This document shows positions 10,034-48,349 of a stretch of 64,000 nt of DNA, one piece after another (within the stretch, counting starts at the first letter, position 1; every line of letters begins with the position of its first letter). The notes below the pieces were generated by a model that ran no database searches, was not told where the DNA came from, and saw only the letters and a list, made by a program, of their open reading frames with translations. Source of the stretch: a virus; the IMG/VR virus record IMGVR_UViG_3300025099_003636, positions 35,620-99,619 of that record. The stretch is one strand, 5' to 3'. The translations under genes were made by a program, and so were the position numbers.

Positions 10034-10050
10034 TATGATATTTATTAACA

Positions 10051-11151: not shown

Positions 11152-11160
11152 TCACTTTCG

Positions 11161-11192: not shown

Positions 11193-11196
11193 TAGT

Positions 11197-12227: not shown

Positions 12228-12228
12228 T

Positions 12229-13588: not shown

Positions 13589-13610
13589 TTTATCTTTTTA
13601 TTATAAATAT

Positions 13611-13641
13611 TTTGTTTTGTACAATAATTTACATATATTTG
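13611..13641 (+). promoter_or_regulatory. Promoter for the small ORF and tmRNA
   Basis: TTTG at 13611-13614, 19 bp, then TATATTTG at 13634-13641. It would drive the 62-residue ORF and, since no gap follows that ORF, also the tmRNA. Confidence 0.65.
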
Positions 13642-13666
13642 TACTATATATAAATAAATAAATATT

Positions 13667-13855: not shown

Positions 13856-13860
13856 CATAT

Positions 13861-22096: not shown

Positions 22097-22624
22097 ATGA
22101 AAAATCTACTAACAACACTACTTTTAATACTAACCATAACATCATATGGACAAACTAAATTAGATTCTCTTATATTTGATATGGTGAACGAATATCGTGT
22201 TTCTAACGGATTAACTGCTTGGGTTTGGGACGATAATACTTTTTTAATCGCAGAAAAACACAATGAGTATCAAGTAAAAATATCTGATATTTCACATAAA
22301 GAATTGCAGGATGTTGAAAACCATAAAGAAGTTAGTAGGTTAGCTCATCGTTTTGATTATGTTTTTACAGATTGGATGCGTTGTGGTGAAAATATAGCTG
22401 TTGTTAATACATTAGATTTATCAGTAGAAGAAATTGCGACTACTACATTAGAAATGTGGATTGCTTCACCACCACATAACAGAACACTTTTACAACCAAC
22501 TAAATATGAATATGGTGCTATTAGTTCACATAGTAGTACAAAATGGTCACGTTCTAAGTACTCTCACAGTAATAGTTGGGTTTATGTTACCTTAAATGTT
22601 TATGGGGGGTCTTTACCTAATTAG
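22097..22624 (+). CDS. Secreted CAP-domain (SCP/PR-1) protein
   Basis: 175 residues. The signal peptide is about residues 1-18 (MKNLLTTLLLILTITSYG). The CAP core shows a first helix FDMVNEYRVSNGL, H-N-E-Y, the GENIA box (RCGENIAVV), and a second-helix motif MWIASPPHNRTLL with the paired histidine. The C-terminal strand is WVYVTLNVYGG. Bacterial CAP proteins act in the periplasm or outside the cell; their chemistry is largely unknown. The phage copy may act on the host envelope. It overlaps the convergent 615-residue gene by 8 bp. Confidence 0.85.
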   Translation: MKNLLTTLLLILTITSYGQTKLDSLIFDMVNEYRVSNGLTAWVWDDNTFLIAEKHNEYQVKISDISHKELQDVENHKEVSRLAHRFDYVFTDWMRCGENIAVVNTLDLSVEEIATTTLEMWIASPPHNRTLLQPTKYEYGAISSHSSTKWSRSKYSHSNSWVYVTLNVYGGSLPN

Positions 22625-27246: not shown

Positions 27247-30200
27247 TTAGTAAGGATTTTTCTTAGTATATCCTAATCTCGTAAATGATGTATTAGTTCT
27301 TTCTGTAGTACATTGACCTACATTAACTTGTAATAACAATTCTCTAGTTAAATAAGCTAATGGACTATCCTTATATACGTTAGTTCCTGTAATATTATAT
27401 AATGGATACCAAATTTCGTCAGCTGAACAATCTTGTTTACACACTTCTACAGTTAATGGTCCTGAAGTAGTGTACTCATAAGACCACTCACCTTTTTGTT
27501 TTGTTGTTATTACACTAGAACAACACATCGGTATTGGTGAATATTCTCTTCCTTCACCTTCAAACACAACACCATTTACTTGTTGTCCTGGTTCACACCA
27601 CATAAATCCTGCACAACCACTATTTAAACAACCTTCTAAACTATCGTAGAATACTCCACTTGATGGTTTGGTGTCTTGTGGTATACAAGCTTGTTGAGTT
27701 GAACCGTCCACTGGGTTAACTGATGATGCACATGCATAATAAGTTATTTTACTATCTACATTACAATTCGAACTTGTGTATATACAATCATTAGCCGTGT
27801 AAAAATCTTCACTTTGTCCAGTTTCACATTGTACACAACCCGAATCACTTAATTTATATCTTATACTTTTGTCAACTGATTCACCAACCCCACGAGGTTT
27901 AGTAACCTCTTTTACAATCTCCTCCGATTTTTCAAATAAAGTTTTTGTGGTAGTTATAGCACTAGCTTCAACATCAAAATCACCTCTTGCTAATGTTAGG
28001 TCTTCACCTTTTTTATCTATAAAATCTTCTGATGCTATATGAGCAACCATATGGTTAGGTGAACAATTACAATTTACTTCATCCCAATGCCATCCCCAAG
28101 GACATGGTTGTGTATCACATACACATCTACATGCGGTATAACTCCAGTGATACCCTGGAATACATGATACGTTTGGTTGACATGGTCCATGTGGATTACA
28201 TATAATTTCCGCCCATCCAAGTGGACATTTACATGGATTTGCTGTTGGTGACATTTGTATTTGATGTCCTTGTTTATTAACACAACATTTTTTACATGGA
28301 CCTGGAGGGCAACAAATTGGGTCACAAGCTGCTTCTGTAGGATATTGACCGCTAGAACCTAATACTGGATAACAATGACACAAACTATGGTCACAAATAC
28401 ATGGTTCTTGGTAAATCTTTATAACAGGGTTAGATAAAGGTGTGTTAGGTAAATTAAAGTGAATATTTATTTTCTGCATTACAGTACCAAGAGTATCTGA
28501 CATACTAATGGTGTTTATACCGGCTACATTAATACATTGACCGATAAAGTATGCCCACACGTACATTGGTTGTGGACTAACAACCTCACATTTGAAGTAT
28601 GATATTCTCCATTGTGGGTGTGAACCACCATTAGTACTAACATAACACTGACCTGGTTGTGGACTGGTACCTTCAAAAGATATCTGGTCCAGTGTTGTAT
28701 ATTGTAAGTTATTTGATGAATTTGATATGTGGTTAAGTGCTGTTAGTTTATCAAAGACTCCAGGCCATGGCAAATAATGTACAACAGCGTCACAATTATC
28801 AGCTTGTGAACCCACATCACAATTCCATGTGATAACACATCCTGGTGGGTTTGCTGTTGGTGATTGGTTCTGACAATCTGCTAATGCAGTAACTCCTGTA
28901 TATGTTCCAGTACCGTTTCCTGGGTCTATACACCCAGCTATACTTAATTGTGGATTTATTTGACAGTTGTATGTTACAGGTACTGTTATACCTGAAGCAC
29001 ATGACATTTCACTTGCCATAGCAGCTGGCCATTGTATGTTGTCCGCCCCATAAACTTTTTTTGTTACATTATTAGTAAATTGTATAGGTGTGTTATGTAC
29101 TGGTGTTGGTGCAAACTGTAGTACTGGTGTTTGTAGTAACTCATAAACTCTCGCGTCATTAGTTATACCATATACAATATTAGTGTCAGCATCAATAAAT
29201 AAAGAATCAAAGAAAGTTGTTCCTGTAAGAATTGATGATGGGATTACAGCGTCTTGTATTAAAGTACCAGTAGCTGTAAACTTACCTACTTTTTTAGTGT
29301 TTGTGGTTCCATATAATATTATAAACATGTTATTTGAACTCCCTAAACTTCCAGTATATAGTAAATCTCCAGTACAATGTGTACCACTAGGTAGTGTAAA
29401 TAATGTTGTTAGGATACCAGTATTTGTTGATATGTCTATCGTTTGTACTTTTGTATTTGCACAAAGTAGTTTATCAGTCGCGTAATAGGTAAGTCCTTTA
29501 CCAATACCATATGCCGGTACATTAATAGTTCTATTATATGAAACGGAGAATGGTGACATAACCATGTCATATTCTCTTATTTGTGTACCACCACCTGTTA
29601 CAGTATAAATCCATATTTTATTATGTGTTGCTGCTATATCGTTTGTATCATAAGAATTATCACTAAATAAATGTGTTGCTACATCTGTTTGAACATTGTA
29701 GTGTAGGATACCTTCATCATCACCAACAATTAAAACATCACAAATACCAACACTTGGTCCATCACAACAATCATTTTCACATTGTGATAGGTCTCCTGCG
29801 TGGTAGGTACCTGTATGCCCTGTACCGATAACCTTAATACAATCACAATCTGTACAGGCTGTCGCACATTGTGTGTATGTAGTATAAGGTCCTAATGGGT
29901 CTGTAAAACACGTATATGTTGACGGATTACAATCCCAACAAACTGGTAGTCCACATCCTTGACCAACATAATTACAACAACTATTCCAACCAGCATTAGT
30001 GGTTCCCAGTGTAGTACCGTCACAATTTACTGTAGCTGTTGGGTCGTAGTTGGTGGCTGTTGCATCTGTACACCCTATCGCTAATCCAGTAGGGCATCTT
30101 GTTATTAAACTTTTATTTATTAAATAAACATCATTAAATATATTAACTCTATTTGGTGCGTTATCTGGATATGCTAATGGGTTAACTACTGTTTGTAATC

Positions 30201-32028
30201 CCATAGCTGCTGAATTAAGATTATCCTCAAACCAAGGTCTAGCATCAGCATAAGTTACTAAGGTATTAGGCATCCCACAACTATATAAGAAATTTCGTAT
30301 ACTATCCCAACTTCCCGAAGCAAGGACGTTGGTTGTTCTTGTGCCAAAACCACTTACAGGGCTAGTTATATATTTTTCTATTAATTCAAACCCAGCAAGA
30401 AACATTACGTCAGTAGTTTCTGGTATTACAGTTGTTGTTGTATAATTACCAGTACATAAAGAGAATCCCTGACCCTGTCTCGTTGTAGGTATATTATTGT
30501 CTTGTGGGTATATGTTATATAGTGTGGTTGATATACCGGCATTTACTTGAGCGTTATAGTAATCTTGATTTGTATATGTGTTCTGAGCCTGTGCAAGAGC
30601 TAATAGCTGTGTCAGAGACATAGAAGTTGTAAATCCACCAGCATAACCTTCTGTGGCAGCAACTAAGTTAAACCAATCTACTAGTTGTTGGAAATTCCAA
30701 CCAACATAAGTCCCACTTCCAGGTATAACACCAGGTGAACCCCAACCATTTCCACCATTCCACACTAGTGGGCCATAAGTTACATTAGTAGGGTCACCAA
30801 AGTTGTAAATATGTACTATTAAAGGTACTTTTAAACAAAATCCAGGATTATTTGGGTCTGGACACTGATTTGTAAGATTTGGTGAACACTGAGTACTAAC
30901 GTGATGTGTGTTAAAATTGACTGTTGGTCCATATAAATTATTTACTGCGTCTGGTACGGACCCATAAGTTAATATATCTGCATTTGGTAAGTATGTTGGA
31001 GAAGTTACTAAACAAGAACAGGTAAATACTGTTGTAGTGCTTTCCCCACTACATTTACAACCGGTACCTCTTAATTCTTCTTGGTATACTGGTGATGTAT
31101 TTGTTTGAAATGGGTGTGGGTGAACTGATGTTAATGATGAATGTCCGGTAACAGGTACAACTATTATACCGTCTGTAAAGTCGTTAACTGATTGATTTGA
31201 CATTTTATCATAATACGGGTGAGCTTGAGATATATATTGTGAAAATGTATGTACATCAACATAATTAGTTGTTAATGCTAAGGTTTGACTTTGATTCCAC
31301 CCTTGTGGGTCGTCCCATAAATCAATAGGTGAAACAATTAAATTTCCGTTACTTACAGGTTCATTTAAACCCCTAAAACCACAATAAGGTAATTGTACAT
31401 CATCTGGAAGTATTGGAATTACGTTATTGTCAGGGTATACCCAACCTCCCGAACCAATACTGGAAGGTATAAATACTTCTGTATTTCTACCAGCCCATAA
31501 TAAACTGTGTGGACCACAACACTCTTCCCAAGCACTAGGATTTCCTGTATTTGGCGTTACCACATTTCCAAGTAAACAATTACTACAGTTATTTGTTGTG
31601 CCCGCTGTAAAGTCATTAGCATTCGCTGCTGGTGTTTGCCAAAATGTGACAGCTATTCCATTAGGTGGTGGAGTATATGGGGCTGTAGTGTAAACACAAC
31701 TACCACCACAAGGACTAGTTGGTGGGCAAACAGTACAAGTACCATTGTTGTACATTGTTTCATCTATAATCTCTAATACCTTATAGCATGCTACTTGACC
31801 TTGACCAGCATTAGAAAAAGTATCAGTATATGTAAACCAGTCTCCTACATTTGGGTATATCCCGTGAAGGGGTTGACCTACATCCCAACTTTCATTAGAG
31901 AAGTAACAACATGACCGTAAGTTAGGTGTATCTGGCACACAATTACCATTATTATCTATGTATTTACTGAAGACATAGGTTCTAAAACCTAGTCCGGGTA
32001 CATCAACTTTTATACTATTCCAAGACAT
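27247..32028 (-). CDS. Giant cysteine-rich protein with a propeller-like region (fibre or adhesin candidate)
   Basis: 1593 residues. The N-terminal 700 residues are rich in Asn, Thr, Gly, Pro and Cys, without a signal peptide. Near residue 648, GCTDATATNYDPTAT is the Bacteroidota GCTD-x-x-A-x-N-Y element. Short Cys-rich units follow (CWDCNPSTYTCF, CIKVIGTGHTGTYHAGDLSQC). Residues about 760-970 are repetitive strands (DVLIVGDDEGILHYN, IWIYTV, MFIILYG) like a beta-propeller. A dense Cys block lies near 1240-1340, and more Cys units run to the C-terminus. Length, composition and the neighbouring 2955-residue protein suggest a tail fibre or surface adhesin. Upstream on the same strand is the even larger relative. 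Confidence 0.7.
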   Translation of the reverse strand: MSWNSIKVDVPGLGFRTYVFSKYIDNNGNCVPDTPNLRSCCYFSNESWDVGQPLHGIYPNVGDWFTYTDTFSNAGQGQVACYKVLEIIDETMYNNGTCTVCPPTSPCGGSCVYTTAPYTPPPNGIAVTFWQTPAANANDFTAGTTNNCSNCLLGNVVTPNTGNPSAWEECCGPHSLLWAGRNTEVFIPSSIGSGGWVYPDNNVIPILPDDVQLPYCGFRGLNEPVSNGNLIVSPIDLWDDPQGWNQSQTLALTTNYVDVHTFSQYISQAHPYYDKMSNQSVNDFTDGIIVVPVTGHSSLTSVHPHPFQTNTSPVYQEELRGTGCKCSGESTTTVFTCSCLVTSPTYLPNADILTYGSVPDAVNNLYGPTVNFNTHHVSTQCSPNLTNQCPDPNNPGFCLKVPLIVHIYNFGDPTNVTYGPLVWNGGNGWGSPGVIPGSGTYVGWNFQQLVDWFNLVAATEGYAGGFTTSMSLTQLLALAQAQNTYTNQDYYNAQVNAGISTTLYNIYPQDNNIPTTRQGQGFSLCTGNYTTTTVIPETTDVMFLAGFELIEKYITSPVSGFGTRTTNVLASGSWDSIRNFLYSCGMPNTLVTYADARPWFEDNLNSAAMGLQTVVNPLAYPDNAPNRVNIFNDVYLINKSLITRCPTGLAIGCTDATATNYDPTATVNCDGTTLGTTNAGWNSCCNYVGQGCGLPVCWDCNPSTYTCFTDPLGPYTTYTQCATACTDCDCIKVIGTGHTGTYHAGDLSQCENDCCDGPSVGICDVLIVGDDEGILHYNVQTDVATHLFSDNSYDTNDIAATHNKIWIYTVTGGGTQIREYDMVMSPFSVSYNRTINVPAYGIGKGLTYYATDKLLCANTKVQTIDISTNTGILTTLFTLPSGTHCTGDLLYTGSLGSSNNMFIILYGTTNTKKVGKFTATGTLIQDAVIPSSILTGTTFFDSLFIDADTNIVYGITNDARVYELLQTPVLQFAPTPVHNTPIQFTNNVTKKVYGADNIQWPAAMASEMSCASGITVPVTYNCQINPQLSIAGCIDPGNGTGTYTGVTALADCQNQSPTANPPGCVITWNCDVGSQADNCDAVVHYLPWPGVFDKLTALNHISNSSNNLQYTTLDQISFEGTSPQPGQCYVSTNGGSHPQWRISYFKCEVVSPQPMYVWAYFIGQCINVAGINTISMSDTLGTVMQKINIHFNLPNTPLSNPVIKIYQEPCICDHSLCHCYPVLGSSGQYPTEAACDPICCPPGPCKKCCVNKQGHQIQMSPTANPCKCPLGWAEIICNPHGPCQPNVSCIPGYHWSYTACRCVCDTQPCPWGWHWDEVNCNCSPNHMVAHIASEDFIDKKGEDLTLARGDFDVEASAITTTKTLFEKSEEIVKEVTKPRGVGESVDKSIRYKLSDSGCVQCETGQSEDFYTANDCIYTSSNCNVDSKITYYACASSVNPVDGSTQQACIPQDTKPSSGVFYDSLEGCLNSGCAGFMWCEPGQQVNGVVFEGEGREYSPIPMCCSSVITTKQKGEWSYEYTTSGPLTVEVCKQDCSADEIWYPLYNITGTNVYKDSPLAYLTRELLLQVNVGQCTTERTNTSFTRLGYTKKNPY

Positions 32029-32063: not shown

Positions 32064-35000
32064 TTAACATACGCAACCTTCTCCATATAATCTAAATTCA
32101 CCATTTAATTGTGCAAATCCTACTGTTGCTTGTCCTATCGCAAAATTAAGTTCGTATGGTTGTGTGTTTAACATATTTTCTAAACAACCAGTAAGATTTT
32201 GTAAACTAGGTGATGGATTTGCTGTCCCTCCACCAAGTTGTACACAAACTTCAGGATAGTCAGTAAGTATTTGACCTACAAGTGATGCGTAAGTAGTGTG
32301 TGGTGAAACTATTATTGCCCCAGTTGTTCTATGTACAACACCTATTCCAGTAGGTTTCCACCATTTACCGTTTGGTGATGAACAATAAGTAGATATAATA
32401 TTTCCAGTTAATAATGATTCTGGACTTAAAGTTGTTGTATCCATTTTATAATTTTGTAAATCTTGTTCCTGCATATTGTATCTACCAGTAACCGAATTTA
32501 AATAAACATCGTATGGTGAATATTGATTTTCAGGATTACCAAAAAAGTCTATAATTACATTACCTGGTTGTTGTTTTTGTGCCCATTGCCACATATTAGC
32601 TGGTGGTACACCAGTATTCGCTATATTCACATTAGTACGTGGTTGAAGGTTTAGATATCCACCCGCTCCGTACAGGTATTGTAAATTACCATAAAACTCT
32701 AAAGGTATTTGATTGGCACAATTAGTAGAACTAATTTGATTACACGCCCATTCATAACAAACATCTTCACAATCCTGTAGAGCAGTAGTACCAACAAATG
32801 TACCATAACCACCTCCTGGGTCAACACACCCATTTATTGTACAATCATAACTTTCTTCATCTACATCACAACAAGGTGGTATACAAGATGCGTATGTTGG
32901 GTATTGCCCTCCTGGTCCAGCAACTTCTATACAAGTACAATCAACTACAGTACACTCACACTGGTTACTTACTGAACCAATACCTGGCCATGGATGTGTT
33001 GGTGTGTCCCACGTAATACCCTGGTTAGGGTCAGTATCCAACATCATATTCTGTACGTCAGTTAAAGTCATACCAATAAAGAATGGTGTTAGTGTAGGTT
33101 GTGACCCATTTCCTGAAGTTTGGTACGCATCATTTAAGTAGTTTATCACATCATTCCAATTATTAGCGATTGGTGGTTGAGCTTGTAGTGGGTCGTATAT
33201 ACCAAACGGATTACCTAAATTAGGGGCTTCCAAATGTCTATAAAAATAACCGGTTTGTGGGTCTATGCAAGAGTTCGCTCCCACACCAAAGTTAGTATTC
33301 ATTAACCAATATAAATCTACAAAATCTACAAATGGGAAGTTTGTAAGAGAGTAGTTAAGTGCTGTCAGTGAGTCCATTGGTACACCAGGATTCATTTGAA
33401 TTGTTCCAGCTCCACAATTAGGAGAATCTACACCAATAACTTCTTCCACTCCAGGAATACAATTCCATGAGGTCTCTCCGGTACAATTTATTATACAGTC
33501 ATTCCATGTAGGTTCTATACCGTATGGCACATATAAACAAGTACCTATTGTTTGTGGGAAGACTGGTGGTGTACATTCCCACCCCATTGGTGGTGGTGGA
33601 CAACATAGTGGTTGACACGCTTGTTGTGTTTGGTATGTTCCTCCACCAGAAAATAACTCGTAACAATAACATGGTTCCGAACTACAACAATTGTGAGTTT
33701 CAATAACACAACCAAGACCTGTACCCCCTATTTGAGTATCTATTTTATCACAAACAAGTAATACACTGTCGGATGGATTAAATGACACCCCTGCTGTTGT
33801 CGCTGCCCCAGAAAAGGTTTGCCACGTATTATAGGTTTGACCACCATTTACATTAGGGTGTGATATATTTGAGATGTATTGGTATGGCCAGTAGTCTTGT
33901 GTTCCTGGTGTATTCCAATAACAGTCGGTCCAATTTATTGCTGCCCCTATATTGGCTTGTACTTGTGCCCAAGTTAGTGGGTTAATACCTGGTAAAGTAG
34001 GTGTTGCGATAACAACTTTTGATAAACCGAATTGTGTGTTAGCTGAATTAACTCTCCAGTGTTCTAAAGCGTTAAAGTTGTCATTATACATACCTAAGAA
34101 ATTTCTATCTGTACATATAGGTGTATAAGGGGTACTGTTTTGACAATTCCATGACGTACCGGAATTACAACAAATTAATTGACATTCAGTTTGTGATGTA
34201 TATGTACCACTACCATCTAATAATTCAATACAATTACAAGGTGTGTTAGTACAAATACATTCTGTTTTACCGTATTCAATGTATGAAGAACAAAAAGCCG
34301 AATAAGATTGTATTTGTGCTTCTATAGCTGCTGCTGGCATACCAGCTATCAAACCTAATACAGGACCATCTGGTGCTGGATAAGTTTGTAGGGCTGTAAT
34401 AAAACTTGCCCAACTTGTATAGTTATTTCCTTGTATAGCTGAATTATTTAATGTTATTCCTGTTAATTTCCATAATTGACCACCGTTAGGTCCCTCACAA
34501 CCATCTGTACCAAATGGTGGTGCAGTAGACTCATACTGGTAATTACTAAATGTGTCCGTAGGATTATTAATAGCCATATAGTCATAAGCTATAGCTGTTG
34601 TTGGGTATATTGATGGTATTAATGTTAGTCCGTCACAAGTGTTTGCTTGTGTAGTTGTTTGACAACTCCACGTGGTAGCTGTTGCTCCAGTACAACAAAC
34701 TTCTGTTGCTGCTGTAGAAGATGTGTAAGCCCCGTGTGTTTGTGCTGGAAGAGGTAACTCATCTATACAACCAATTAAACATTCTTGTGAATCACATGTA
34801 CACCATTCCCAATTAACATAAGCGTGTGGTCCTGCATTACTTAATACATCTTGCCAACTACTATTATACGTTAATGGTGGTGATACACTACCTACTTGAT
34901 TTAAAGCATCAATAAATGTTGCCCAAGTGTAGTATTGACTATTTAAACCTAGGATTGAGTGGGATACTGATGTGATTCTAGCCCAATGTCCTGCTGTAGC

Positions 35001-38000
35001 CACACATGGATTATTAGGTAATGGTTGGGTTGCCGATATAGTAGGACTAGGATTAAAGTAATTTCCTGTCATATCCCACCTTAAATTACCAAATTGTGTT
35101 GTATGCCAACTAGGGTTATTTGCGATAGCTGTCAATTGACCGTCAGTATCGGAACTGATTATTCCTGTTGATATTGCGTTTAGACAATTAGCGTTAAATG
35201 TCATTCCATCACCAGTGAAACAATACCAATGTTCTTCACAAGAAGCTGTACAAGCTATTTCAGTTAAGTGTGTTGCTCCAGTATTAGGATATTCTGTACA
35301 ACCAGTAACTGGATTAAGTGGTGGTAGTGCTGGTGTAACTATAGGTGTTGGGAAAGTTACTGTACCACAAGGGTTAGCACATTCCCAAGATTTACAATCT
35401 GCTGTACAAGCTGAATAAGAAGCGTCTGTACCTACAGTTTGGGATAGGGTATTATAATATGTTCCTCCCGTACCTATTTGTGCTATACAACCATTCCAAG
35501 TAGATAACGTACCATACGATTGGTTATATTCTTCACAATTCCATGATGTACATAATCTGTAACAATCACTACTATCTGTAAAAGTACCTCCGGTACCACC
35601 TAATGGATTAGGGTAATATGAACCTGATGGTGCTGATGTTAAACCGTTATGAGCAAACATTTGTGGGTTAGGGAAGTTATAGTCATGACATCCAGAATCA
35701 GTAGAACAACTATATGATAAACAAGGTGTCTCAAAGTTAGGGTTGTTACATTGGTCCCATGTCATAGTACCTACAGCTGATAAAGTACAACCAGTATCTG
35801 TACACGCGTATAGTTGTTGTGGTGGTACACAATTACAACTACAACAATCTAGAATTAAATTAGTACAAGTTTCACAAGAATATGGATGTGTTATTGATTG
35901 ATTCCATAATGTTTCAGCTGAAACACAGCCTACTGTAAGACTAGAGCTTGTTTGTGTTAAGAATGTACCTAAATCTGATTGAAACTGAACTGAGTTAAAT
36001 GGTAAAAAGTCTACATTATACCCCCACCCTTTAGCTGCTAAATGTCCAGTACCTGCAGAGTAGTATGGGTTTGTAACACTTAACATGTGTAGGTCAGCTA
36101 TACCACATAATGCTGGTACTCCTCCTTGAAGCCCTCCTGAACCTGCTGTTCTAGGGTATGTAGTTGCTGAAAATGTCCCATTAGGTATTGGTTGGTCACC
36201 AGGTGTTATTGACGCGACAACTTGTAAAGCAAAAGTTTTTTTAGAATCTTGTTGTCCTTGATTAAAGATGTTTGAACATTCTATTGGGTATACAAAACCT
36301 TGTGTACTTCCACCAGACACTGTTACTGCAGCGTACGTACTTGTCCAAGCTGTATAATCTTCTGTCCATCCAGATGTTGGTTGGTAGTGTGAAACATTAC
36401 TTCCACCAGAAAATGGTGGCATATTACCTATAATACCACTACCACCATGATATCTACCAGCACCATTATCTATATATGCTACACCATCCGCTTCATCAAT
36501 AAAATTAATTATTAAAGTTTTTCCAGTTACTGATGTTGTTGGTGGTAAACCTTTAGTTGTTACATTACCTATACCAAATATACTTTGTGTTCCCGCTACC
36601 ATATTGTCGTACCAATTACTAGCTTGTGCAGTTGTTGCTGCCCATTGTATAACTTGTAAGTTTTGTAAATTATTTAATAAATTAGGTGTTTGTAAACCAT
36701 TCTTAACTGAACCACTATAAACTGAACTACCCCAGTCCAACCAACGTTCATCATCAATAGCAATGTGGTATGTGTTTCCTGTATGTCCTGGTATTGTGTT
36801 TATCCAGGCTACCAAAGAATTGTGTGCGTTTTGAACACAGTTAAGGGTTAAAGAAGAGGTGTCATAAAAAGCGTATATGTTAGTATCTGTACTTACATTA
36901 TTTTGGTCACACCCCCAACCGAAACAAACATCTTTACATAATTGTTCAGTTAGGTAATTATTAACACCAACTACGAAATTACCGGCTTGTTCTACACAAC
37001 CACCTACTTGACATTGGAACCATTTACAGGTCGTGTCTGCCGTACATGCAGCTTCAGTACTAAATGTGTGTGCAGTATTAGGATAAGAGGTACATGGTAT
37101 TGATGGACCACAATCCCAAGAAACACAGGTGGCTGTACATGCACTCTCCGCTGAAAAGGTTTGTCCACTACCAATATGTTCAATACAAGCATTTTGTGTA
37201 AACATAACGTTTTGTGGTGTATAACTACACTGCCATGATGTACAACCTGTTTGACAATCTATAAGGTCTGTAAAAGTACCTCCGGTACCACCTAATGGTG
37301 AGTTATAAGAATCACAACCAAGTGTAGTACAACTCCATGACTGACATGATGCTGTACAAGCTGAATAAGTTTCATAAGTACCACCAGTACTGTTTAATAT
37401 ACATCCTGTAGAAGTACATTCATACATAGGACTACAAACATCTAAACAGTCGGTTTGAGATGAATATGGGAAACTAGTAGATGTAGAAGTTGCTGCTGAT
37501 GTACAACCAGTTGCAACTGTAACTGTCCCTCCTTGAACAAAAGAATTTAAGTCGGTTTGGAATTGTGTAAAAGTATATGTTGGGAATTCTACATTGGTAC
37601 CGAACCCCATTTGGTCTAATCCACCATATCCTGCATCCCAATAAGGATTATTAGTTTCTAATTCTGTTAAGTTTGCGATAGAACATAATCCAGGAACACT
37701 TCCACTTGCTCCACCCGCAGATGACATTCTTGGTGCCGTACCAGCTGACCATAAACCATTTAATGCGTATGGTAGTCCACTACCAGGATTAATGTATTGG
37801 TCCATATTACCACTACTGATGGACGCTAATACTGATAAAGCCATATGTTTGAATACCATTTTTGTACCACTACCCCAGTAGGAATAATTTACTGGTTTGG
37901 TTGGGTACACAAAAGTAGCTACACTACCATTATTAGTTTGTACATCATTCCATATTGTTAACCATCTATTGTAGTCGTTTTGGAATGGTGCTGTTGGTTC

Positions 38001-40931
38001 CATTTGATTTGCAGCAACCGCCGCAAAAGAAGGTGTATCACTGGCTATTCTATCAACATCATAGTATATTCCTGTATTACCTAATTCGTTATATGCCCAA
38101 GCTGGTCCGGAAGGCCAACCATCAGATTCATCAGCAAAAATTACGTTTAATACTGGAACACTATAATCTGGTGATGTAAAACTACCACCCGCGTAAGGTG
38201 GGAACCCTCTAAATGAATATAATCCGGTATTTATACCATTACCAGCAGTACTTACGTTAAATCCAGTAGGGAATGATGATGGGTCCATATTATCAAACCA
38301 ATATGCACCATTAGGTTGTGATTGACCCCAAGCTATAACTTTCAACCATCTAGGAAATGATGAACCACCTAGATTAGCGTTCCAACCACCAGATACCCCA
38401 TTAGGAGAATAAATAGGTATACCTGCTTGAGTTCTTAAACCATATGATGTTGGTTGTTGGAATGGAATCCCTGCCCAACCTAACCATCTTTCATTATTAA
38501 TTGGTGTATGGTAAATTTTACCTGTCCACCCAGGTATTGTGGTGGTCCATTGCATTATGGCATCATGAGCTGTTGTTGTATTAGTAAAGCTCATAGATGT
38601 TGTATCGTAATATACGTATATGTCTGTATTTTGTGCTACACTTTGTTCATTACAAACCCAGGAAATACATGGGGTACTAGCTGTTGCAGCTGTACATGCT
38701 GTTAATGCTGCAGCTTGGGTTGCACCTGTAAATGTACCACCAGTACCGTAGTAAGGTATGTTGAATGGTTCACAAGTAGGGTCATCCCCCACACAAGATA
38801 TTTCATAAGAAAAACAAGATGCTGTACATAAGGCTTGTGTTTCATATGTTCCGCCCGAACCTATTTGTGGTAAACAACCATTGGCTGTACAATTCCAAGT
38901 TTCACAAGGAGATTCTTGACATTGGGTTAGTGAAGTATAAGTAAAGTTTGTTGAGGTTCCTGTTATACACCCGTTTTCACCACAAAGCCAGTATGGTGGT
39001 ATACAAAGTTCGTCACAATCATCCGCTACCGTAAAAGTGCCTGTCTGTCCAGTACCTGCTAATTCTAAACAACCAAAAGTAACACTATTACAAGAGTAAG
39101 ATACACAACTTGCCGTACATGACTCAAGAGTACTAAATTGTCCTGCTGGTACGGTGGTAGATGAATATACTGATTCACAACCATTAATGGTACAATTATA
39201 TGTATAAGAACTTGGATATACACAATCAACGGGTTGTGAAGCACCATTAAACGATAACAGTTGACCCCCAGTACATTCCATGGATGGTGAAGTATTGAAA
39301 TTTGCAGCACCATCTAGATGAAACTTGTCCTGTAACTGAACACCTGCAGCCGTCCAGAAATAATATTGTACATCAATACCAAAACTAGTATCAACATTAA
39401 TTGGTGTGTTTTCTACACCAAAGAAATCAAACTCTGGATGTGTAACTGCAGCTGAATATCTTTTTGGCATTTCAGGCGTCTGTCCATTGTCGGCTGCACC
39501 TGCCAGTAAGTAGTATAGTGTTGACGATGGTTCTTTAACTATAGCCGCAGACAGAATACCAGATGATGTTCCTACTGGAATTGCACCTGGTGTAGTCTGA
39601 CTTCCCAATTGTTGTAGTCCTGCTGGTAATTGTTGTGCACAAGGTACGGAATTAACAATAAAATTATCTAAATCTACTACATATTTTACAAGTGATTTTC
39701 CTTGAGGCATTCTGTCGTCCCATAACTGAGGTTGGTCTGTGTAATAATTTATGACTGATACTGCTACGGTTGGTTGACCTCCTTGTGATGGGTCAGAAGC
39801 TATAAATGTTAAATCACCCTGTGATTTAACAGTTTGGAATTGGTCCGATATTCCGGTACTTGACGCTCCTTGTAGTAATGGGTAATTTAAATCAATAATT
39901 TTTTGGGCTACAACAGTATAAATTTTGTAGTCTGTTTCACGAGAACAAATCGCCCAACCCAACTCTAAATCTATACCCTGATTGGCTACATAGGCGTCTC
40001 TTGCCGATTGTTCAAGTTGGGCATTAGTTACATCAGTATATGTCCCCGAAGTATTATTATGTGGTGTAGCTCCGTAAGGATTAGCTGGGTTTTCTGAAGA
40101 AAAAATAGTTGGTCCTATGTAATTGTTATCTAATCTTACATAGTAGATATTACCCATTTTGTCATCCACTAAAACTTCGTTATCACTAATATAACCTATA
40201 GAGTGATATATACCCATCTCACCCTCCATAAAATTGGTCCCTAACATAGATTTTCCTAGAGGTACATCTACTTTTTGAGCACTTGCATCATTGGAGAGAC
40301 CAATTAATTGTCCATATTCATCAACTAATCTGTATGTTCTGAATGGTTTTTTTTGGAATGAGGATGGGGTCTCGGAAGTGTATGAATAACTATATTGGTT
40401 TAGTGTTAGTGTTTGATAACCACAATTCGCTCCATTACCAGCAAAATCCATACACACACTACAGGAGTCTCCATTACCAGAATTATATTGCGGTCCTCCA
40501 GGGTTAGGAGCACCTGCACCAAGATGAACCTGGTTTCTACCTTTAATACCAACTGTACATCCAACCGTAAATGTACTATTACCCATACCAATATCAGGAC
40601 TCCTATGAGGTATTGTATCAGCAAAGTACACATTATTATCTGTTACATCATAAGTCCATAACCTACTTAAAGGAGCACCAGACGTTGCAGTGTAACCTAG
40701 AGTTTCGTTACAAGGTAAAGCTGGTGTTCCATTACCACAGACATTTATGCCATCCCAAGTAAAAAGATTTAAGTGCTTAAGGTTGTCAATATATCTTGTT
40801 AGGGTAGCATCAGTATACCTAGGTTCTGTGTTATTAAATCCGAGAGGACCGAAATTTGAGTAGTTATTACCTCCAGGGCCGGTAGATGTTCCACCATTAT
40901 CATTTACTAGAACCCAACATTTATTTGACAT
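32064..40931 (-). CDS. Giant cysteine-repeat protein with two vWA-like domains (adhesin or fibre candidate)
   Basis: 2955 residues. Residues 1-580 are a non-repetitive N-terminal region. Then at least fifteen units follow the pattern W-x-C, a variable stretch, G-C-x(4-8)-G-x-G-G-T-[YF], x(5-8), C-x-x-x-C. Two related domains of about 320-370 residues interrupt them, near 770-1140 (YVYYDTTSMSF) and 1350-1665 (YAFYDTSSLTL). Both also share IYH, ERWL and [FI]-x-[DE]-E-x-D-G and look like von Willebrand A folds. The last 1000 residues are longer repeats with T-C-x-C-I-E/C-x-E segments. There is no signal peptide, so a virion fibre is more likely than a secreted protein. A 31-bp identical DNA repeat occurs at 35577 and 37268. 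Confidence 0.75.
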   Translation of the reverse strand: MSNKCWVLVNDNGGTSTGPGGNNYSNFGPLGFNNTEPRYTDATLTRYIDNLKHLNLFTWDGINVCGNGTPALPCNETLGYTATSGAPLSRLWTYDVTDNNVYFADTIPHRSPDIGMGNSTFTVGCTVGIKGRNQVHLGAGAPNPGGPQYNSGNGDSCSVCMDFAGNGANCGYQTLTLNQYSYSYTSETPSSFQKKPFRTYRLVDEYGQLIGLSNDASAQKVDVPLGKSMLGTNFMEGEMGIYHSIGYISDNEVLVDDKMGNIYYVRLDNNYIGPTIFSSENPANPYGATPHNNTSGTYTDVTNAQLEQSARDAYVANQGIDLELGWAICSRETDYKIYTVVAQKIIDLNYPLLQGASSTGISDQFQTVKSQGDLTFIASDPSQGGQPTVAVSVINYYTDQPQLWDDRMPQGKSLVKYVVDLDNFIVNSVPCAQQLPAGLQQLGSQTTPGAIPVGTSSGILSAAIVKEPSSTLYYLLAGAADNGQTPEMPKRYSAAVTHPEFDFFGVENTPINVDTSFGIDVQYYFWTAAGVQLQDKFHLDGAANFNTSPSMECTGGQLLSFNGASQPVDCVYPSSYTYNCTINGCESVYSSTTVPAGQFSTLESCTASCVSYSCNSVTFGCLELAGTGQTGTFTVADDCDELCIPPYWLCGENGCITGTSTNFTYTSLTQCQESPCETWNCTANGCLPQIGSGGTYETQALCTASCFSYEISCVGDDPTCEPFNIPYYGTGGTFTGATQAAALTACTAATASTPCISWVCNEQSVAQNTDIYVYYDTTSMSFTNTTTAHDAIMQWTTTIPGWTGKIYHTPINNERWLGWAGIPFQQPTSYGLRTQAGIPIYSPNGVSGGWNANLGGSSFPRWLKVIAWGQSQPNGAYWFDNMDPSSFPTGFNVSTAGNGINTGLYSFRGFPPYAGGSFTSPDYSVPVLNVIFADESDGWPSGPAWAYNELGNTGIYYDVDRIASDTPSFAAVAANQMEPTAPFQNDYNRWLTIWNDVQTNNGSVATFVYPTKPVNYSYWGSGTKMVFKHMALSVLASISSGNMDQYINPGSGLPYALNGLWSAGTAPRMSSAGGASGSVPGLCSIANLTELETNNPYWDAGYGGLDQMGFGTNVEFPTYTFTQFQTDLNSFVQGGTVTVATGCTSAATSTSTSFPYSSQTDCLDVCSPMYECTSTGCILNSTGGTYETYSACTASCQSWSCTTLGCDSYNSPLGGTGGTFTDLIDCQTGCTSWQCSYTPQNVMFTQNACIEHIGSGQTFSAESACTATCVSWDCGPSIPCTSYPNTAHTFSTEAACTADTTCKWFQCQVGGCVEQAGNFVVGVNNYLTEQLCKDVCFGWGCDQNNVSTDTNIYAFYDTSSLTLNCVQNAHNSLVAWINTIPGHTGNTYHIAIDDERWLDWGSSVYSGSVKNGLQTPNLLNNLQNLQVIQWAATTAQASNWYDNMVAGTQSIFGIGNVTTKGLPPTTSVTGKTLIINFIDEADGVAYIDNGAGRYHGGSGIIGNMPPFSGGSNVSHYQPTSGWTEDYTAWTSTYAAVTVSGGSTQGFVYPIECSNIFNQGQQDSKKTFALQVVASITPGDQPIPNGTFSATTYPRTAGSGGLQGGVPALCGIADLHMLSVTNPYYSAGTGHLAAKGWGYNVDFLPFNSVQFQSDLGTFLTQTSSSLTVGCVSAETLWNQSITHPYSCETCTNLILDCCSCNCVPPQQLYACTDTGCTLSAVGTMTWDQCNNPNFETPCLSYSCSTDSGCHDYNFPNPQMFAHNGLTSAPSGSYYPNPLGGTGGTFTDSSDCYRLCTSWNCEEYNQSYGTLSTWNGCIAQIGTGGTYYNTLSQTVGTDASYSACTADCKSWECANPCGTVTFPTPIVTPALPPLNPVTGCTEYPNTGATHLTEIACTASCEEHWYCFTGDGMTFNANCLNAISTGIISSDTDGQLTAIANNPSWHTTQFGNLRWDMTGNYFNPSPTISATQPLPNNPCVATAGHWARITSVSHSILGLNSQYYTWATFIDALNQVGSVSPPLTYNSSWQDVLSNAGPHAYVNWEWCTCDSQECLIGCIDELPLPAQTHGAYTSSTAATEVCCTGATATTWSCQTTTQANTCDGLTLIPSIYPTTAIAYDYMAINNPTDTFSNYQYESTAPPFGTDGCEGPNGGQLWKLTGITLNNSAIQGNNYTSWASFITALQTYPAPDGPVLGLIAGMPAAAIEAQIQSYSAFCSSYIEYGKTECICTNTPCNCIELLDGSGTYTSQTECQLICCNSGTSWNCQNSTPYTPICTDRNFLGMYNDNFNALEHWRVNSANTQFGLSKVVIATPTLPGINPLTWAQVQANIGAAINWTDCYWNTPGTQDYWPYQYISNISHPNVNGGQTYNTWQTFSGAATTAGVSFNPSDSVLLVCDKIDTQIGGTGLGCVIETHNCCSSEPCYCYELFSGGGTYQTQQACQPLCCPPPPMGWECTPPVFPQTIGTCLYVPYGIEPTWNDCIINCTGETSWNCIPGVEEVIGVDSPNCGAGTIQMNPGVPMDSLTALNYSLTNFPFVDFVDLYWLMNTNFGVGANSCIDPQTGYFYRHLEAPNLGNPFGIYDPLQAQPPIANNWNDVINYLNDAYQTSGNGSQPTLTPFFIGMTLTDVQNMMLDTDPNQGITWDTPTHPWPGIGSVSNQCECTVVDCTCIEVAGPGGQYPTYASCIPPCCDVDEESYDCTINGCVDPGGGYGTFVGTTALQDCEDVCYEWACNQISSTNCANQIPLEFYGNLQYLYGAGGYLNLQPRTNVNIANTGVPPANMWQWAQKQQPGNVIIDFFGNPENQYSPYDVYLNSVTGRYNMQEQDLQNYKMDTTTLSPESLLTGNIISTYCSSPNGKWWKPTGIGVVHRTTGAIIVSPHTTYASLVGQILTDYPEVCVQLGGGTANPSPSLQNLTGCLENMLNTQPYELNFAIGQATVGFAQLNGEFRLYGEGCVC

Positions 40932-41032: not shown

Positions 41033-41740
41033 TTAAATTTCTTCTAGTATTAAGTATAAATAACTGTTCCAAATTATTCCCGCGTGTGAACCTGCTTGTG
41101 TTATTTCTAATTTAAATCCACCATTCCCATCTTCAATAACATCCATATATGTTGTCCAACTTAACCACACACCATTACAAGTTAATGTTCTTAAATCCAT
41201 AGTTAATGTACCCATATTATATGTGTAATTATCAACATACATTGTCATAAAATTAGGAGCGAAATCATAAGCGTGTGCTGGTGAACCAGTACTATTTGTT
41301 GGGTAGACATTAACTGTGAATATGTCGTTTCCTTCTCCATAATAATCATCATTAAAACTTATTGTACTACTGGATAAAATACTATAAGGGTTTGAGGTAT
41401 ATGAATATGATGTGTCAACGTGTGATGAAGTCACTTCACTACAATTAATTTCAAATCCTGATTCTACTATCTTCCAAGTTTTACCGTCACCAATAAATGT
41501 AGTGGAGGTTGTGTTAGTGTTTGTGTTATTTGATACCACGTAATCTGTAGCTAACAATTCTTCTTCAACATTTTGTATTGTAACTGTGTCACCATCAACA
41601 ATAGTTATTGTATCGTTATTGGTATTAACATTTATTTGTGTGTTTGGATTTGGTGGGATAGGTTGTAATAAGTCGTCTTCTTTTTGGCAAGATGTCATTA
41701 CTACTAATAGTGTCGCTAAACTTAAAAGATATTTTTTCAT
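41033..41740 (-). CDS. Surface lipoprotein with Bacteroidota export signal
   Basis: 235 residues. The signal peptide MKKYLLSLATLLVVMTSC ends in a lipobox with Cys18. The mature start CQKEDD fits the lipoprotein export signal C-x-K-[DE]-[DE], which sends Bacteroidota lipoproteins to the cell surface. Residues 25-95 are a Thr/Asn-rich linker. The remaining domain is all-beta with a lipocalin-like look (TWKIVESGFEINC, FTVNVYP, GTLTMDLRTLTC, GFKLEITQAG). It has its own promoter and terminator. A receptor-masking or superinfection-exclusion role is inferred by analogy with lipoproteins such as T5 Llp. Confidence 0.8.
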   Translation of the reverse strand: MKKYLLSLATLLVVMTSCQKEDDLLQPIPPNPNTQINVNTNNDTITIVDGDTVTIQNVEEELLATDYVVSNNTNTNTTSTTFIGDGKTWKIVESGFEINCSEVTSSHVDTSYSYTSNPYSILSSSTISFNDDYYGEGNDIFTVNVYPTNSTGSPAHAYDFAPNFMTMYVDNYTYNMGTLTMDLRTLTCNGVWLSWTTYMDVIEDGNGGFKLEITQAGSHAGIIWNSYLYLILEEI

Positions 41741-41841: not shown

Positions 41842-43470
41842 TTAATCGTTATCTAATGCATCTAACATATTAGATATATCATCCTCAGCCCCCATTTCGG
41901 ATTTTTTTCTTTTTTCTAGATTTTTCTTGTAAGTTTCAGTCCGATATTTTTCTGGTACAGCTGTCACATCATCAAATCCTGGGTTTTCAAACATTAAACT
42001 TAACAACATATTATTATCTTTATCACTACCGTCTGACCCAAACCAAGTTAATAATGATTTATTACTTAATATATTGTTAACCCATTCTTTATATCCTTCG
42101 GTACGATATTTTTTTGGTACAATTGTTTTACCTTCCTCAAAAGCATGCCATCCATTTTTTATTGCTTGAGTCATGAGTTCGTTATCCTTAGCACTACCAG
42201 AAGAATTAAAGATAAACTTTATAAAGTCCCATTGTGTTTTTATATTTTCGTCTACTTCAAATTCACCATCAGTGGCTACTTCCTGAAAGAAATTACCAAT
42301 TTTAATGTCAGTTGTATCATCAAGGTCTATTCCCCATAATTTTTCTATTAACTTTTTAGGGCCTCTAATACCACTTTTTGCCATTTCCTCCATTATTTTA
42401 AAATATCCCAACCCCGCAATTACATATGGTGTCGCTGCTTTACCAAATTGTATAAGTTTGCTTTGTTGTTTTGCGGTATACAACCCAGTCTTTGTTAGTG
42501 CTTCAACCATTTCTTTACTTAGTTTTGCTTTAACACCATCAATGGTTATTTCAAGAAATCCTTTTTCAACTGCGTTCTCAACCATTTCTTTAGTAATTTT
42601 TTTACCTCCGATTTCCACAGCTTCTCCAATAAAGTCTTTAGCCACAATATCCTTGAGGTGTGCCTTTACTTCTTTTTCAAGAAATTCTTGTGCGGTTTCT
42701 GTTGTCAAACTTCTTAGTTGGTATTGTTCTAGTAGGGTAAGTCCTTCCCCAGTAATAACTTTTCCCGCTATCTTTTGTGTCCCTCCTTTGGCCCATGATT
42801 TAACAAAAGGAAACTTTTTTACCACAGCAGGAACTCCTGGTAAGATAGTAAGGAATCCGACCAACCCAGCCATTTCCTCATCACCCTCACTATAATAAAG
42901 TGCAGCATCTGTCAGACCTGCAGCCATAGAGATACCTAAAGCTACACCCCATCCTATTCCAGGTATTAATAATGCCCCAATTTCTATTATGGGTAAAACA
43001 CAATGCCACCACTTATCACACCAACCTGGTTCACCCGCTTCATAATGGTTTATTTTCCAGTCTACACCTTGTTTGTTACCTACATTATATTTCCAACTTT
43101 TAGTATGTCCTGGATAAAAATCCTTAATCCCATTTTTATATTGTTTATAAAATTGGTCGTCACTGCAACTTGAGAAGAAAGTACCAATGCTTGTACCACA
43201 TTTCTGTGTTCCCGTAGTCCAGTTTTCCCACTTACCGTCAACAATCTTTTTTGCTACGGAGTCTCTTTTCTTTTTCCAACTCTTAGTATATTGTTGTTCG
43301 TCAGGCCAACGAGCAGAACCTGGACCTTTCATACTCCTTCCATAATCTTTTAATGATGAAATTGACATACCGTCGTAGTAACCACCTTGCACCGTTTGTT
43401 CTATAATAGCCTGCTCTAATATAGTTTCACTTAGTGTTAAATGTAGGGATATTTTAGTTTTCTTGGCCAT
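41842..43470 (-). CDS. Tagged virion protein with hydrophobic pre-toxin-like domain (paralogue 1)
   Basis: 542 residues. The N-terminal tag contains ISLHLTLSETILEQAIIE|Q. Residues about 151-220 begin CDKWWHCVLP and carry ALLIPGIGWGVALGISMAAG, then EGDEEMAGLVGFLTILPGVP: alternating hydrophobic helices and Gly/Pro turns as in the linker domains of polymorphic toxins. A Lys-rich helical region and a C-terminal domain (WDFIKFIFNSSG, then WFGSDGSDKDNN) follow. It is a clear paralogue of the protein at 46889-48349. Its start abuts the stop of the upstream gene. I infer a head protein that enters or crosses the membrane at infection. Confidence 0.75.
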   Translation of the reverse strand: MAKKTKISLHLTLSETILEQAIIEQTVQGGYYDGMSISSLKDYGRSMKGPGSARWPDEQQYTKSWKKKRDSVAKKIVDGKWENWTTGTQKCGTSIGTFFSSCSDDQFYKQYKNGIKDFYPGHTKSWKYNVGNKQGVDWKINHYEAGEPGWCDKWWHCVLPIIEIGALLIPGIGWGVALGISMAAGLTDAALYYSEGDEEMAGLVGFLTILPGVPAVVKKFPFVKSWAKGGTQKIAGKVITGEGLTLLEQYQLRSLTTETAQEFLEKEVKAHLKDIVAKDFIGEAVEIGGKKITKEMVENAVEKGFLEITIDGVKAKLSKEMVEALTKTGLYTAKQQSKLIQFGKAATPYVIAGLGYFKIMEEMAKSGIRGPKKLIEKLWGIDLDDTTDIKIGNFFQEVATDGEFEVDENIKTQWDFIKFIFNSSGSAKDNELMTQAIKNGWHAFEEGKTIVPKKYRTEGYKEWVNNILSNKSLLTWFGSDGSDKDNNMLLSLMFENPGFDDVTAVPEKYRTETYKKNLEKRKKSEMGAEDDISNMLDALDND

Positions 43471-44298: not shown

Positions 44299-45150
44299 TT
44301 AGGTTAAATTCTTAGTTTTTTTGTATTTTAATTGAGCGTCAATAAAGGTGTTTATGTTTGGGTACTTTTTCTTGTCGGCTTTTTTATATTTGTTTTGGTA
44401 TTCTTTTTTTTCGTTACTGGTTAACTTTTTAATTTCATCTTTCACCTCACTTTTAACGATTGATTTTGATGTTTTATACGAACTTCCTTTTGCTATACCA
44501 CTAAAAAATTCTTTCATCTGTTTTACCATTACATTACCTGCTTTAGTAAATGCTAAAGGTAATCCAATAAACCCAAATGAAGCTTTATCTACTAGTTTGG
44601 CAAATGAAGGTATTAAACTATCAAGAAAAGAATTAATTTTACTAACATTTTTACTTATAATGCCGTACACTTTTTTAATAAGTCCTTGAACTTTACCACC
44701 CATATTATTTGCTAACTTAAATAAATTATTTGAGGCTACTTTACCACTTGTTGTCATTAGACTAAATATTTTAGATAATTGTTTTCCCACTAATTTATGT
44801 AGTGCTTTAAATGGTGTAGCTATAACTGAACCTACCACCGGTATTACAGCTACAAGGGATAAAGCTCCTAGTACCCATTTTTTTCTAATCATATAAATTA
44901 GAGCGTTAATCGCGTCAAGTGCGTCACCTATACCAGGTATAAATCCAGCGTAATCCAATACAGCTTGTACATCATCTATTACGCCCTCAGTAAGTAAAAG
45001 TTTGCCATTACCATCGTAAATTTCTAAAAGCTGGTTATTTCTATACCCCAACCCTCTACTATATGACATACCTTCAAAAAGTATTCCTTCTTGGTAATTT
45101 AATTCTTCTTGAATTATTTTTAATATTTTATTTTCGTCTGTATTATACAC
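44299..45150 (-). CDS. Tagged protein with an IPGIGD-type hydrophobic domain
   Basis: 283 residues. Candidate tag sites are I-I-Q-E (residue 15) and I-L-F-E|G (residue 26). Residues about 58-120 contain DYAGFIPGIGDALDAINALIY, then a basic turn and LGALSLVAVIPVVGSVIATP. This double hairpin matches the pre-toxin segments of polymorphic toxins (I-P-G-x-G-D, then A-L-S-x-x-A-x-I-P-x-x-G). The rest is basic and helical, with a second hydrophobic helix near 195 and a Lys-rich C-terminus. It overlaps the upstream tagged gene by 8 bp. Confidence 0.7.
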   Translation of the reverse strand: MYNTDENKILKIIQEELNYQEGILFEGMSYSRGLGYRNNQLLEIYDGNGKLLLTEGVIDDVQAVLDYAGFIPGIGDALDAINALIYMIRKKWVLGALSLVAVIPVVGSVIATPFKALHKLVGKQLSKIFSLMTTSGKVASNNLFKLANNMGGKVQGLIKKVYGIISKNVSKINSFLDSLIPSFAKLVDKASFGFIGLPLAFTKAGNVMVKQMKEFFSGIAKGSSYKTSKSIVKSEVKDEIKKLTSNEKKEYQNKYKKADKKKYPNINTFIDAQLKYKKTKNLT

Positions 45151-46888: not shown

Positions 46889-48349
46889 TTAGTCATCTAA
46901 ACTATCTAAGAAATCTTCCAGTGAATCTCCAATATCATTTTCATCATCCACCCAGTCATCACTTTTTTCCAATTTTTCTCTTTCTTCTTTTTTCTTTTTG
47001 TACGTTTCGGTTTGATATTTTTCGGGTATGGATTCGAATTCACTAAATGATGGATTTTCAAATACTAAACTTAATAAAAGATTATTGTCTTGTTCACTAC
47101 CATCCGAACCAAACCATTCTATCAATACTTTATTACTTAATATACTATTAACCCAGTTTTTGTAATCTTTAGTACGATATTTTTTTGGTACTATTGCTTT
47201 ACCCTCTTCATATGGGTTCCACCCATTTTTTATAGCTTGTACCATTAACTCCCCATCTTTTTTATTTCCAGAAGAATTAAATATAAATTTTATAAAGTCC
47301 CACTCTGTTTCTACATCCATAAAAGGTTCTGCGTCAGGGTCTGTTACTTTAAGAAAAAACTTATTTACTTTTTGGGTGGCTTTATCTCTAGGTTCTATCC
47401 CCCATAAATTCCTTATTAAGTCTTTTGGCCCTAGAACACCAGTTTCAGCTACCTTACCATATATTTCTTTGTATGTTAGTCCTGCTCCTATGAATACGGT
47501 TGTTATTGTAGCAAATTCTTTTAACCAAGCTTTTTGTTTTGCGGTAAATTTTTCTATACTTTCTTTTGTTATTTTTTCCGAGATTTCTTTTTGTACATGT
47601 TTTGTTACCGCCTTTTCAATAAATTCTGTACTTTCACCTAAAGCTTTTAACTGGTATCTTTCTAACATATTAAGTGGTTTGTTATTTGAAATCTTTAATG
47701 CTATTTTTTTAGCACCATTCTTACCCCACGATTTAACAAATGGGAATTTCTTCACAACTTTACCTACTCCCGGTAGTAATGTTAAGAATCCCACAAGACC
47801 AGCAGTTTCTTTATCACCTTCATTCCAATAAATCGCTGCGTCAATCATACCTAGACCAATTGATACTGCCCACCCAACATAAGGAATAAATAATGCTGCG
47901 ACTTCTGCAACAGGTAAAATACAATGCCAAGGATTATCACACATTCCCTTTTCACCTTGTTCCACCCATTCAATCCACTGGTCCATAGTCCAATCTCGTT
48001 TATTTAACATTGTACATGGTGGGGAACCTTCATTTTTATATTTATTATAAAAATCTGTATCAGCTTGTGTCCAATCTTCAAATTCCATTCTCACGATTCT
48101 TCTAGCTTGCCTTTTGGCTTTTTCTCTATACTCTTCACACTCGTTCCAGAATTGGTTGAAAGCTTTTTTAACGGCCTCCCTTTGTTTCTTATCAAAATTT
48201 GATTGGATTTGGTAGTTTGGGCTATCTGGATTATAATCTCCACTTAGAATTTTATCTTTTACATAACCTTGTTCTTGTACAGCAATAGTTTTTTCTGTTA
48301 CTAGGTCAATTAATGAAGAATTTAATGATATTTTGGATTTTTTGGTCAT
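46889..48349 (-). CDS. Tagged virion protein with hydrophobic pre-toxin-like domain (paralogue 2)
   Basis: 486 residues. The tag region (ISLNSSLIDLVTEKTIAVQE|Q) resembles that of the paralogue at 41842-43470. From residue 137, CDNPWHCILPVAEVAALFIP is followed by VGWAVSIGLGMIDAAIYWNEGD and AGLVGFLTLLPGVGKVV, in the same order as in paralogue 1. C-terminal matches include WDFIKFIFNSSG and WFGSDGSEQDNN. The regions before and after the shared parts differ, which suggests an old duplication. Ejection or membrane insertion is inferred. Confidence 0.75.
   Translation of the reverse strand: MTKKSKISLNSSLIDLVTEKTIAVQEQGYVKDKILSGDYNPDSPNYQIQSNFDKKQREAVKKAFNQFWNECEEYREKAKRQARRIVRMEFEDWTQADTDFYNKYKNEGSPPCTMLNKRDWTMDQWIEWVEQGEKGMCDNPWHCILPVAEVAALFIPYVGWAVSIGLGMIDAAIYWNEGDKETAGLVGFLTLLPGVGKVVKKFPFVKSWGKNGAKKIALKISNNKPLNMLERYQLKALGESTEFIEKAVTKHVQKEISEKITKESIEKFTAKQKAWLKEFATITTVFIGAGLTYKEIYGKVAETGVLGPKDLIRNLWGIEPRDKATQKVNKFFLKVTDPDAEPFMDVETEWDFIKFIFNSSGNKKDGELMVQAIKNGWNPYEEGKAIVPKKYRTKDYKNWVNSILSNKVLIEWFGSDGSEQDNNLLLSLVFENPSFSEFESIPEKYQTETYKKKKEEREKLEKSDDWVDDENDIGDSLEDFLDSLDD

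Follow-up and report, generated by a model that had tools for sequence, protein, structure and literature searches.

Giant proteins with four-cysteine units and inserted domains as candidate surface adhesins of a marine Far-T4-like phage

Introduction

What is the function of two adjacent giant phage proteins that are rich in cysteine and carry no recognizable domain? The question is raised by a window of 64,000 nucleotides (positions 35,620 to 99,619 of IMG/VR record IMGVR_UViG_3300025099_003636), taken from a 99.6-kb virus record in which T4-type terminase, portal, protease and capsid genes are present. An initial annotation of the window had described a 2955-residue structural repeat protein, a fibre, at 32064-40931. 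The open reading frame (ORF) matches exactly and lies on the minus strand, which had been left unstated. A second giant gene follows 35 bp downstream on the same strand, and a lipoprotein gene precedes the pair:

32064..40931, minus strand (40931→32064): P0001, 2955 aa with 141 Cys, starting MSNKCWVLVNDNGG (ORF and translation)
27247..32028, minus strand (32028→27247): P0002, the partner giant of P0001, 1593 aa with 86 Cys
41033..41740, minus strand: lipoprotein (MKKYLLSLATLLVVMTSCQKEDD) bearing a surface-export signal of the Bacteroidota type, 101 bp upstream of P0001 and kept in the related contig G001

Cysteine makes up 4.8% of P0001 and 5.4% of P0002, compared with an average of 1.1% for the genome minus both giants, and no signal peptide was found in either sequence. 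P0002 contains cysteine units of the P0001 type together with one K domain (see below). Searches of P0001 against Pfam, PHROG, PDB and INPHARED gave no match, and no fibre, receptor-binding or chaperone domain was detectable in it. A first viral scan with P0001 returned no contig; the relatives discussed here were those obtained through portal, P0002 and V domain queries. A literature search found no description of phage proteins with such cysteine units.

Results

A four-cysteine unit recurs in P0001

A hidden Markov model (HMM) of the unit, with 28 positions and the consensus YDCTTNGCVPQPGTGGTYTTLTACTASC, was built from intact four-Cys stretches. It detected 17 units in P0001 at iE<0.01 (18 at <0.1), in agreement with the "at least fifteen" repeats originally counted. 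Most units scored 8-36 bits, against a maximum of 3.9 bits for shuffled or reversed controls, and CxxxC occurs 19 times in P0001, whereas 500 shuffles averaged 6.7 occurrences and never exceeded 15. The motif first written for the repeat survived only in part: its strict form with G-x-G-G-T-[YF] fits only 3 places, whereas the four-Cys repeat itself is real by the HMM. Nor do the units run through most of the chain, as had been claimed, since they are scattered across aa 578-2725 and occupy ~19% of the residues of P0001, the rest being inserted or flanking domains.

The expectation of a conserved cysteine spacing was confirmed by alignment: across 28 two-unit rows, drawn from four phages, none of the eight Cys varies. 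The distance between Cys2 and Cys3 ranges from ~14 to 42 residues. AlphaFold modeling of the two-unit alignment reached a mean pLDDT of 74 (moderate confidence), with 82-84 for the first unit, and the predicted fold is a hairpin followed by a helix that bears the CxxxC. Comparison of this model with solved structures gave no match at a useful E-value, and a Pfam search of the units found no metal-binding or other significant family match.

Large domains are inserted within the units

The layout of P0001 from its N-terminus is as follows:

39282..40931, minus strand: N-terminal region (aa 1-550), few Cys, conserved start KCWVL-NDNGG
38667..39200, minus strand: Cys array 1 (aa 578-755), with five four-Cys units in tandem by the unit HMM
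37512..38663, minus strand: V1 insert (aa 757-1140), V HMM E 2e-166, and alignment
36924..37508, minus strand: closing half-unit, then Cys array 2 (aa 1142-1336) with five units in tandem
35925..36920, minus strand: V2 insert (aa 1338-1669), V1 paralogue, 34% identity
35238..35927, minus strand: Cys array 3 (aa 1669-1898), unit HMM
32862..35231, minus strand: K region (aa 1901-2690), with four Cys units that each enclose a K-type domain, and intervening units
32757..32849, minus strand: last complete unit (aa 2695-2725), YDCTINGCVDPGGGYG..., unit HMM and alignment
32067..32750, minus strand: C-terminal K-like insert (aa 2728-2955), ending CVC

Judged by eye, the N-terminal region appears beta-rich and propeller-like. 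The inserts, two V domains of ~340-380 aa and at least four K domains of ~130 aa, separate Cys1 (WxC) from Cys2 (GC) in the units that they interrupt. The K HMM matches P0001 at aa 1901-2081, 2087-2256, 2261-2445 and 2489-2689, sequences that had themselves seeded the model, and independent matches lie in G, H and G002. V-like domains are also found in about a dozen other phage giants without Cys units, and V is therefore a mobile phage module. A scan of genome contigs returned no cellular relative of V. An AlphaFold model of the domain (six sequences) gave a beta-alpha-beta start at a mean pLDDT of 32, too poor for a fold search. The proteins that carry V elsewhere (L106-L121) reach 3441 aa; among them YxxYD is invariant, and ER and E are near-invariant.

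The two genes appear to divide one unit

In two relatives, G011 and G021, a single ORF joins P0001-type and P0002-type sequence, with lengths of at least 4905 and at least 5119 aa, lower bounds because both ORFs run off their contig ends. The G011 stretch that aligns with P0002 starts at P0002 aa 721, right after a K-type insert, and the P0001 terminus (…GEGCVC) falls inside the corresponding K-type insert. Because P0001 ends within the insert that precedes P0002 aa 721 in G011, the break between the genes seems to lie within one interrupted Cys unit, whose closing half (…CTDCDCIKVIGTGHTGTYH…) would be encoded in P0002.

Cysteines and unit order are conserved in G001

Both proteins are encoded in the same order in G001 (a 210-kb contig), at 61-62% identity and with a full-length homologue of P0001. 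Identity of P0001 and P0002 to G001 (58-62%) is below that of most neighbours; some other neighbours diverge faster (39-48%). At 134/139 and 84/86 aligned positions, that is 96%, Cys is kept, with an overall identity of 62% (Fisher p=5e-23). Nearly all the differences fall outside the unit arrays, the single one inside an array (aa 713/714) being an alignment shift, and several Cys gained or lost between the homologues come as neighbouring pairs. Because 96% of the Cys are kept at ~61% identity, the alignments indicate that these residues are under strong constraint. The G001 homologue of P0002 (L083:10885-16107) has a HINT domain inserted at aa ~827-954, in a propeller-like region where P0002 is without it.

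Repeated DNA of 31 identical bases had been reported within P0001, together with the proposal that recombination between units could quickly change receptor specificity. The repeat is real, although it is actually 32 bp long and the positions first given were off by 1-2 bases:

35575..35606, minus strand: direct repeat copy, 32 bp identical, encoding PLGGTGGTFTD
37267..37298, minus strand: second copy

In the G001 homologue the corresponding sites differ from each other, and the pair may therefore represent a single small conversion tract. The same homologue gives no support to fast change by unit recombination: at 61% identity, unit number and order are kept, and all of the 14 tested units are closest to their positional orthologue. 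Between the two V domains, about 5 units are present in P0001 and at least 12 in G011/G021. Since unit number is the same in G001 and different in these more distant relatives, the comparison indicates that units are gained and lost over long times, not fast.

Homologous giants occupy a baseplate operon

Related giants of 2456, 2884 and 2967 aa, with 199-242 Cys, were found in G002, G001 and L142 within one conserved operon, in which a gp6-like wedge gene (PHROG baseplate wedge, 5e-20; Pfam Baseplate_J, 5e-9) is followed by three genes, the giant and further large structural genes. The G002 giant is homologous to P0001/P0002-type proteins in the K domain (2e-11) and by blastp matches as low as 1e-19, for which a shuffled control was empty; the tail giant of G001 has a match to the fused homologues at 4.6e-14. 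The giant is the most divergent gene of its operon (37-40% identity vs 45-77%), as expected of a host-contact protein. In G001 the P0001/P0002 locus (~189-203 kb) lies apart from the baseplate module (~54-71 kb), and the gp6-like wedge gene is absent from the 99.6-kb record.

The Cys-repeat scaffold under constraint, with its inserted domains, and its kinship with the giants of the tail module are well supported. A position of P0001 and P0002 on the virion surface, probably on the tail, is moderately supported, the main ground for calling them tail-associated being the homologous giants of the baseplate operon. The original reading as a structural repeat protein thus gains from both the Cys conservation of 96% and these homologues, while the word "fibre" is unproven.

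Phage group and probable host

In a portal tree the window groups with G002, G003, G006, G009 and G011 (100/100). RM378, immuto and Mel-JY01 fall on its side of the tree, and T4 and the cyanophages on the other (100/100); RM378 has a long branch. This placement fits an assignment to the Far-T4-like phages (Rhodothermus phage RM378), a group treated in Roux et al. 2015 (PMC4360716) and linked to marine Bacteroidetes in passages of PMC7198788. According to the searched text of PMC4360716, T4 core host-interaction genes were not found in Far-T4 phages, and the searched text of both papers mentions neither cysteine nor tail fibres. No Cys unit was found in the cultured relatives immuto, Mel-JY01 and RM378.

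The lipoprotein encoded upstream of P0001 carries C-Q-K-E-D-D, which fits the surface-export signal C-X-K-(D/E)2-X of Bacteroidetes lipoproteins (PMC5080379). This signal and the Far-T4 link to marine Bacteroidetes make a Bacteroidota host likely. The lipoprotein might block a receptor, by analogy with Llp of phage T5, which does so.

Redox and protein quality-control genes

The thioredoxin, glutaredoxin and DnaK genes to which the cysteine-rich repeats had been tentatively related were all located in the window:

5366-5809: glutaredoxin
5884-7749: DnaK
21594-21902: thioredoxin, WCGPC, plain cytosolic, no signal peptide

A thioredoxin gene lies within 5-10 kb of the giants in 4/4 phages with the P0001/P0002 locus, and none was found in G002. 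Ordinary roles explain the three genes; G001 also encodes ribonucleotide reductase, the usual partner and client of thioredoxin. These proteins may keep the giants reduced until lysis or take some part in their folding. Glutaredoxin and DnaK belong to a cluster at 5366-14271 that also has genes for a ClpB-like ATPase and a tmRNA (tag AKLVTLGLVREESTVAVA); such a protein-quality set is unusual in phages.

Other observations on the window and its relatives

Unrelated proteins encoded at 10051, 15513-17798, 17809-18261, 22617-24464, 43471, 46014, 48352, 51534, 62340 and 63020 of the window begin with similar short tags (for example LTESELIKMIQQIVKE, LNRNREIMGL and SEEEKNRIRGLHLTES), which may target them to the capsid for packaging in the head. 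Two paralogues (41842-43470 and 46889-48349, minus strand) share a central glycine-rich hydrophobic stretch (LLIPGIGWGVALGISMAAGLTDAALYY), and both, like 44299-45150, diverge fast (42-58% identity to G001). Among the relatives, a gp23-like capsid protein (L002:6668-8470, minus strand) has an unusual Cys-containing stretch (CCDSVTATT...CDANGDIYIEVDLSCPACISC). In the tail module of G002, a 1388-aa protein (L131:581-4747) carries a lone Cys unit (YSCNGGVCIVDSNGIYSSLESCQRAC) near its end (aa 1287-1312), and a small protein (L131:10886-11662) has a dockerin type I domain (PF00404, E 1.1e-6).

Discussion

We propose, with about an even chance of being right, that P0001 and P0002 are virion-surface adhesins, likely placed on tail or baseplate, in a marine Far-T4-like phage whose hosts are probably Bacteroidota. 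Their disulphides, the timing of oxidation, their presence in the virion and their adhesive role are what we infer. The ~28-residue units, each a hairpin and a short helix with four Cys, would form the rigid scaffold of the chain, and the V and K domains, lying between the WxC and GC cysteines, would be held at both ends and displayed sideways, where they would probably bind glycans or proteins of the host surface. The chain, which lacks a signal peptide, would be synthesized in the reducing cytosol, and its Cys pairs would oxidise, giving two disulphides per unit, probably only once lysis frees the particle into seawater. A broader reading, tentative and in our view rather doubtful, is that the two proteins stand for a class of phage attachment machine in which a chain of four-Cys mini-domains serves as a disulphide-locked scaffold that folds or stiffens only once released into the oxidising sea, with the binding domains inside its units; as one unit appears to be split over P0001 and P0002, inter-chain pairing may link the two proteins.

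The location and the chemistry of these proteins could each be read otherwise. P0001 and P0002 might sit on the head or neck, as head fibres or decoration binding debris, polysaccharide or cells. Their genes are indeed apart from the baseplate module, and genes nearby carry short N-terminal tags like those of head-packaged proteins, but the homologous giants of G001, G002 and L142 adjoin baseplate wedge genes, and we hold a head or neck location to be unlikely. The unit cysteines might also bind metal (Zn or Fe-S) instead of forming disulphides, as metal-stabilised folds made in the cytosol. Four Cys per unit and a CxxxC spacing compatible with metal sites, synthesis in a reducing compartment and cytosolic thioredoxin and glutaredoxin encoded in the phage speak for this idea; a Cys2-Cys3 distance that varies from ~14 to 42 is nevertheless unlike usual metal knuckles, several Cys come and go in neighbouring pairs, and no metal-binding Pfam family was matched, which together make metal binding quite improbable.

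We regard it as very unlikely that P0001 is a fibre diversifying fast through recombination among its repeats: the identical 32-bp repeat and the variable unit number among distant relatives would suit such a process, but G001, at 61% identity, has the same unit number and order, with 14/14 units nearest their orthologue and a repeat pair that is not identical. It is scarcely plausible, finally, that the giants act as effectors of the polymorphic-toxin type, whether delivered or processed. The pretoxin HINT or intein-like domain (PF07591, E 1.5e-21) in the G001 homologue of P0002 suggested this; that domain, which stands in mid-chain, is missing from P0002 and was not observed in the fused ORFs, and no C-terminus carries a toxin domain.

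On the adhesin reading, P0001 and P0002 are concrete candidates for the host-contact proteins of the Far-T4 phages, which are reported to be widespread in water and whose host-contact proteins are reported to be unrecognised. They are probably an undescribed disulphide-braced host-attachment protein, a part not identified in this widespread uncultured phage group, and the sequence signature of the Cys unit can be sought in virion proteomes. Should the disulphides prove real, a phage from a reducing cytosol would exploit the oxidising conditions of seawater to brace its adhesin covalently, and the unit would offer a small scaffold into which large domains can be inserted.

We compared the unit and the V domain with known folds. 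The unit resembles Kunitz/BPTI, EGF and cystine-stabilised alpha-beta domains in its short hairpin, helix and terminal CxxxC, and weak matches were obtained to the Kunitz-type anntoxin (E 0.46) and Ixolaris (E 8). It was rejected as a Kunitz/BPTI domain, having four Cys instead of six and ~28 residues, with no PF00014 match at E<=10 for 28 members, and as an EGF-like domain, having four Cys per unit and no EGF family among its matches. The V domain, by eye, recalls von Willebrand factor A (vWA) domains: it has a beta-Asp start (YxxYDxTS), and D-E-S comes after a later strand, an arrangement that brings to mind a metal-ion-dependent adhesion site (MIDAS). No Pfam or PDB profile matched it, and a canonical vWA MIDAS was rejected for it, since DxSxS is missing and the sequence reads D-x-[TS]-S-[MLI], with the Asp invariant in 17 rows.

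At the level of the whole phage, the portal groups with RM378 and the GC content is low (33%), as in Far-T4 phages. Functional parallels for P0001 would be the T4-type long tail fibres (gp34-gp37) and other myovirus tail adhesins. Unlike T4-type fibres, P0001 has no sequence match, chaperone or fibre tip, and is formed of four-Cys units with inserts in place of trimeric beta-fibres. Like them, it is long and modular and lacks a signal peptide. Its homologues lie near baseplate genes and are more divergent than their operon neighbours, and P0001 and P0002 themselves are encoded elsewhere. We have filed P0001 and P0002 as a variant of the phage adhesins that stands outside any known domain family.
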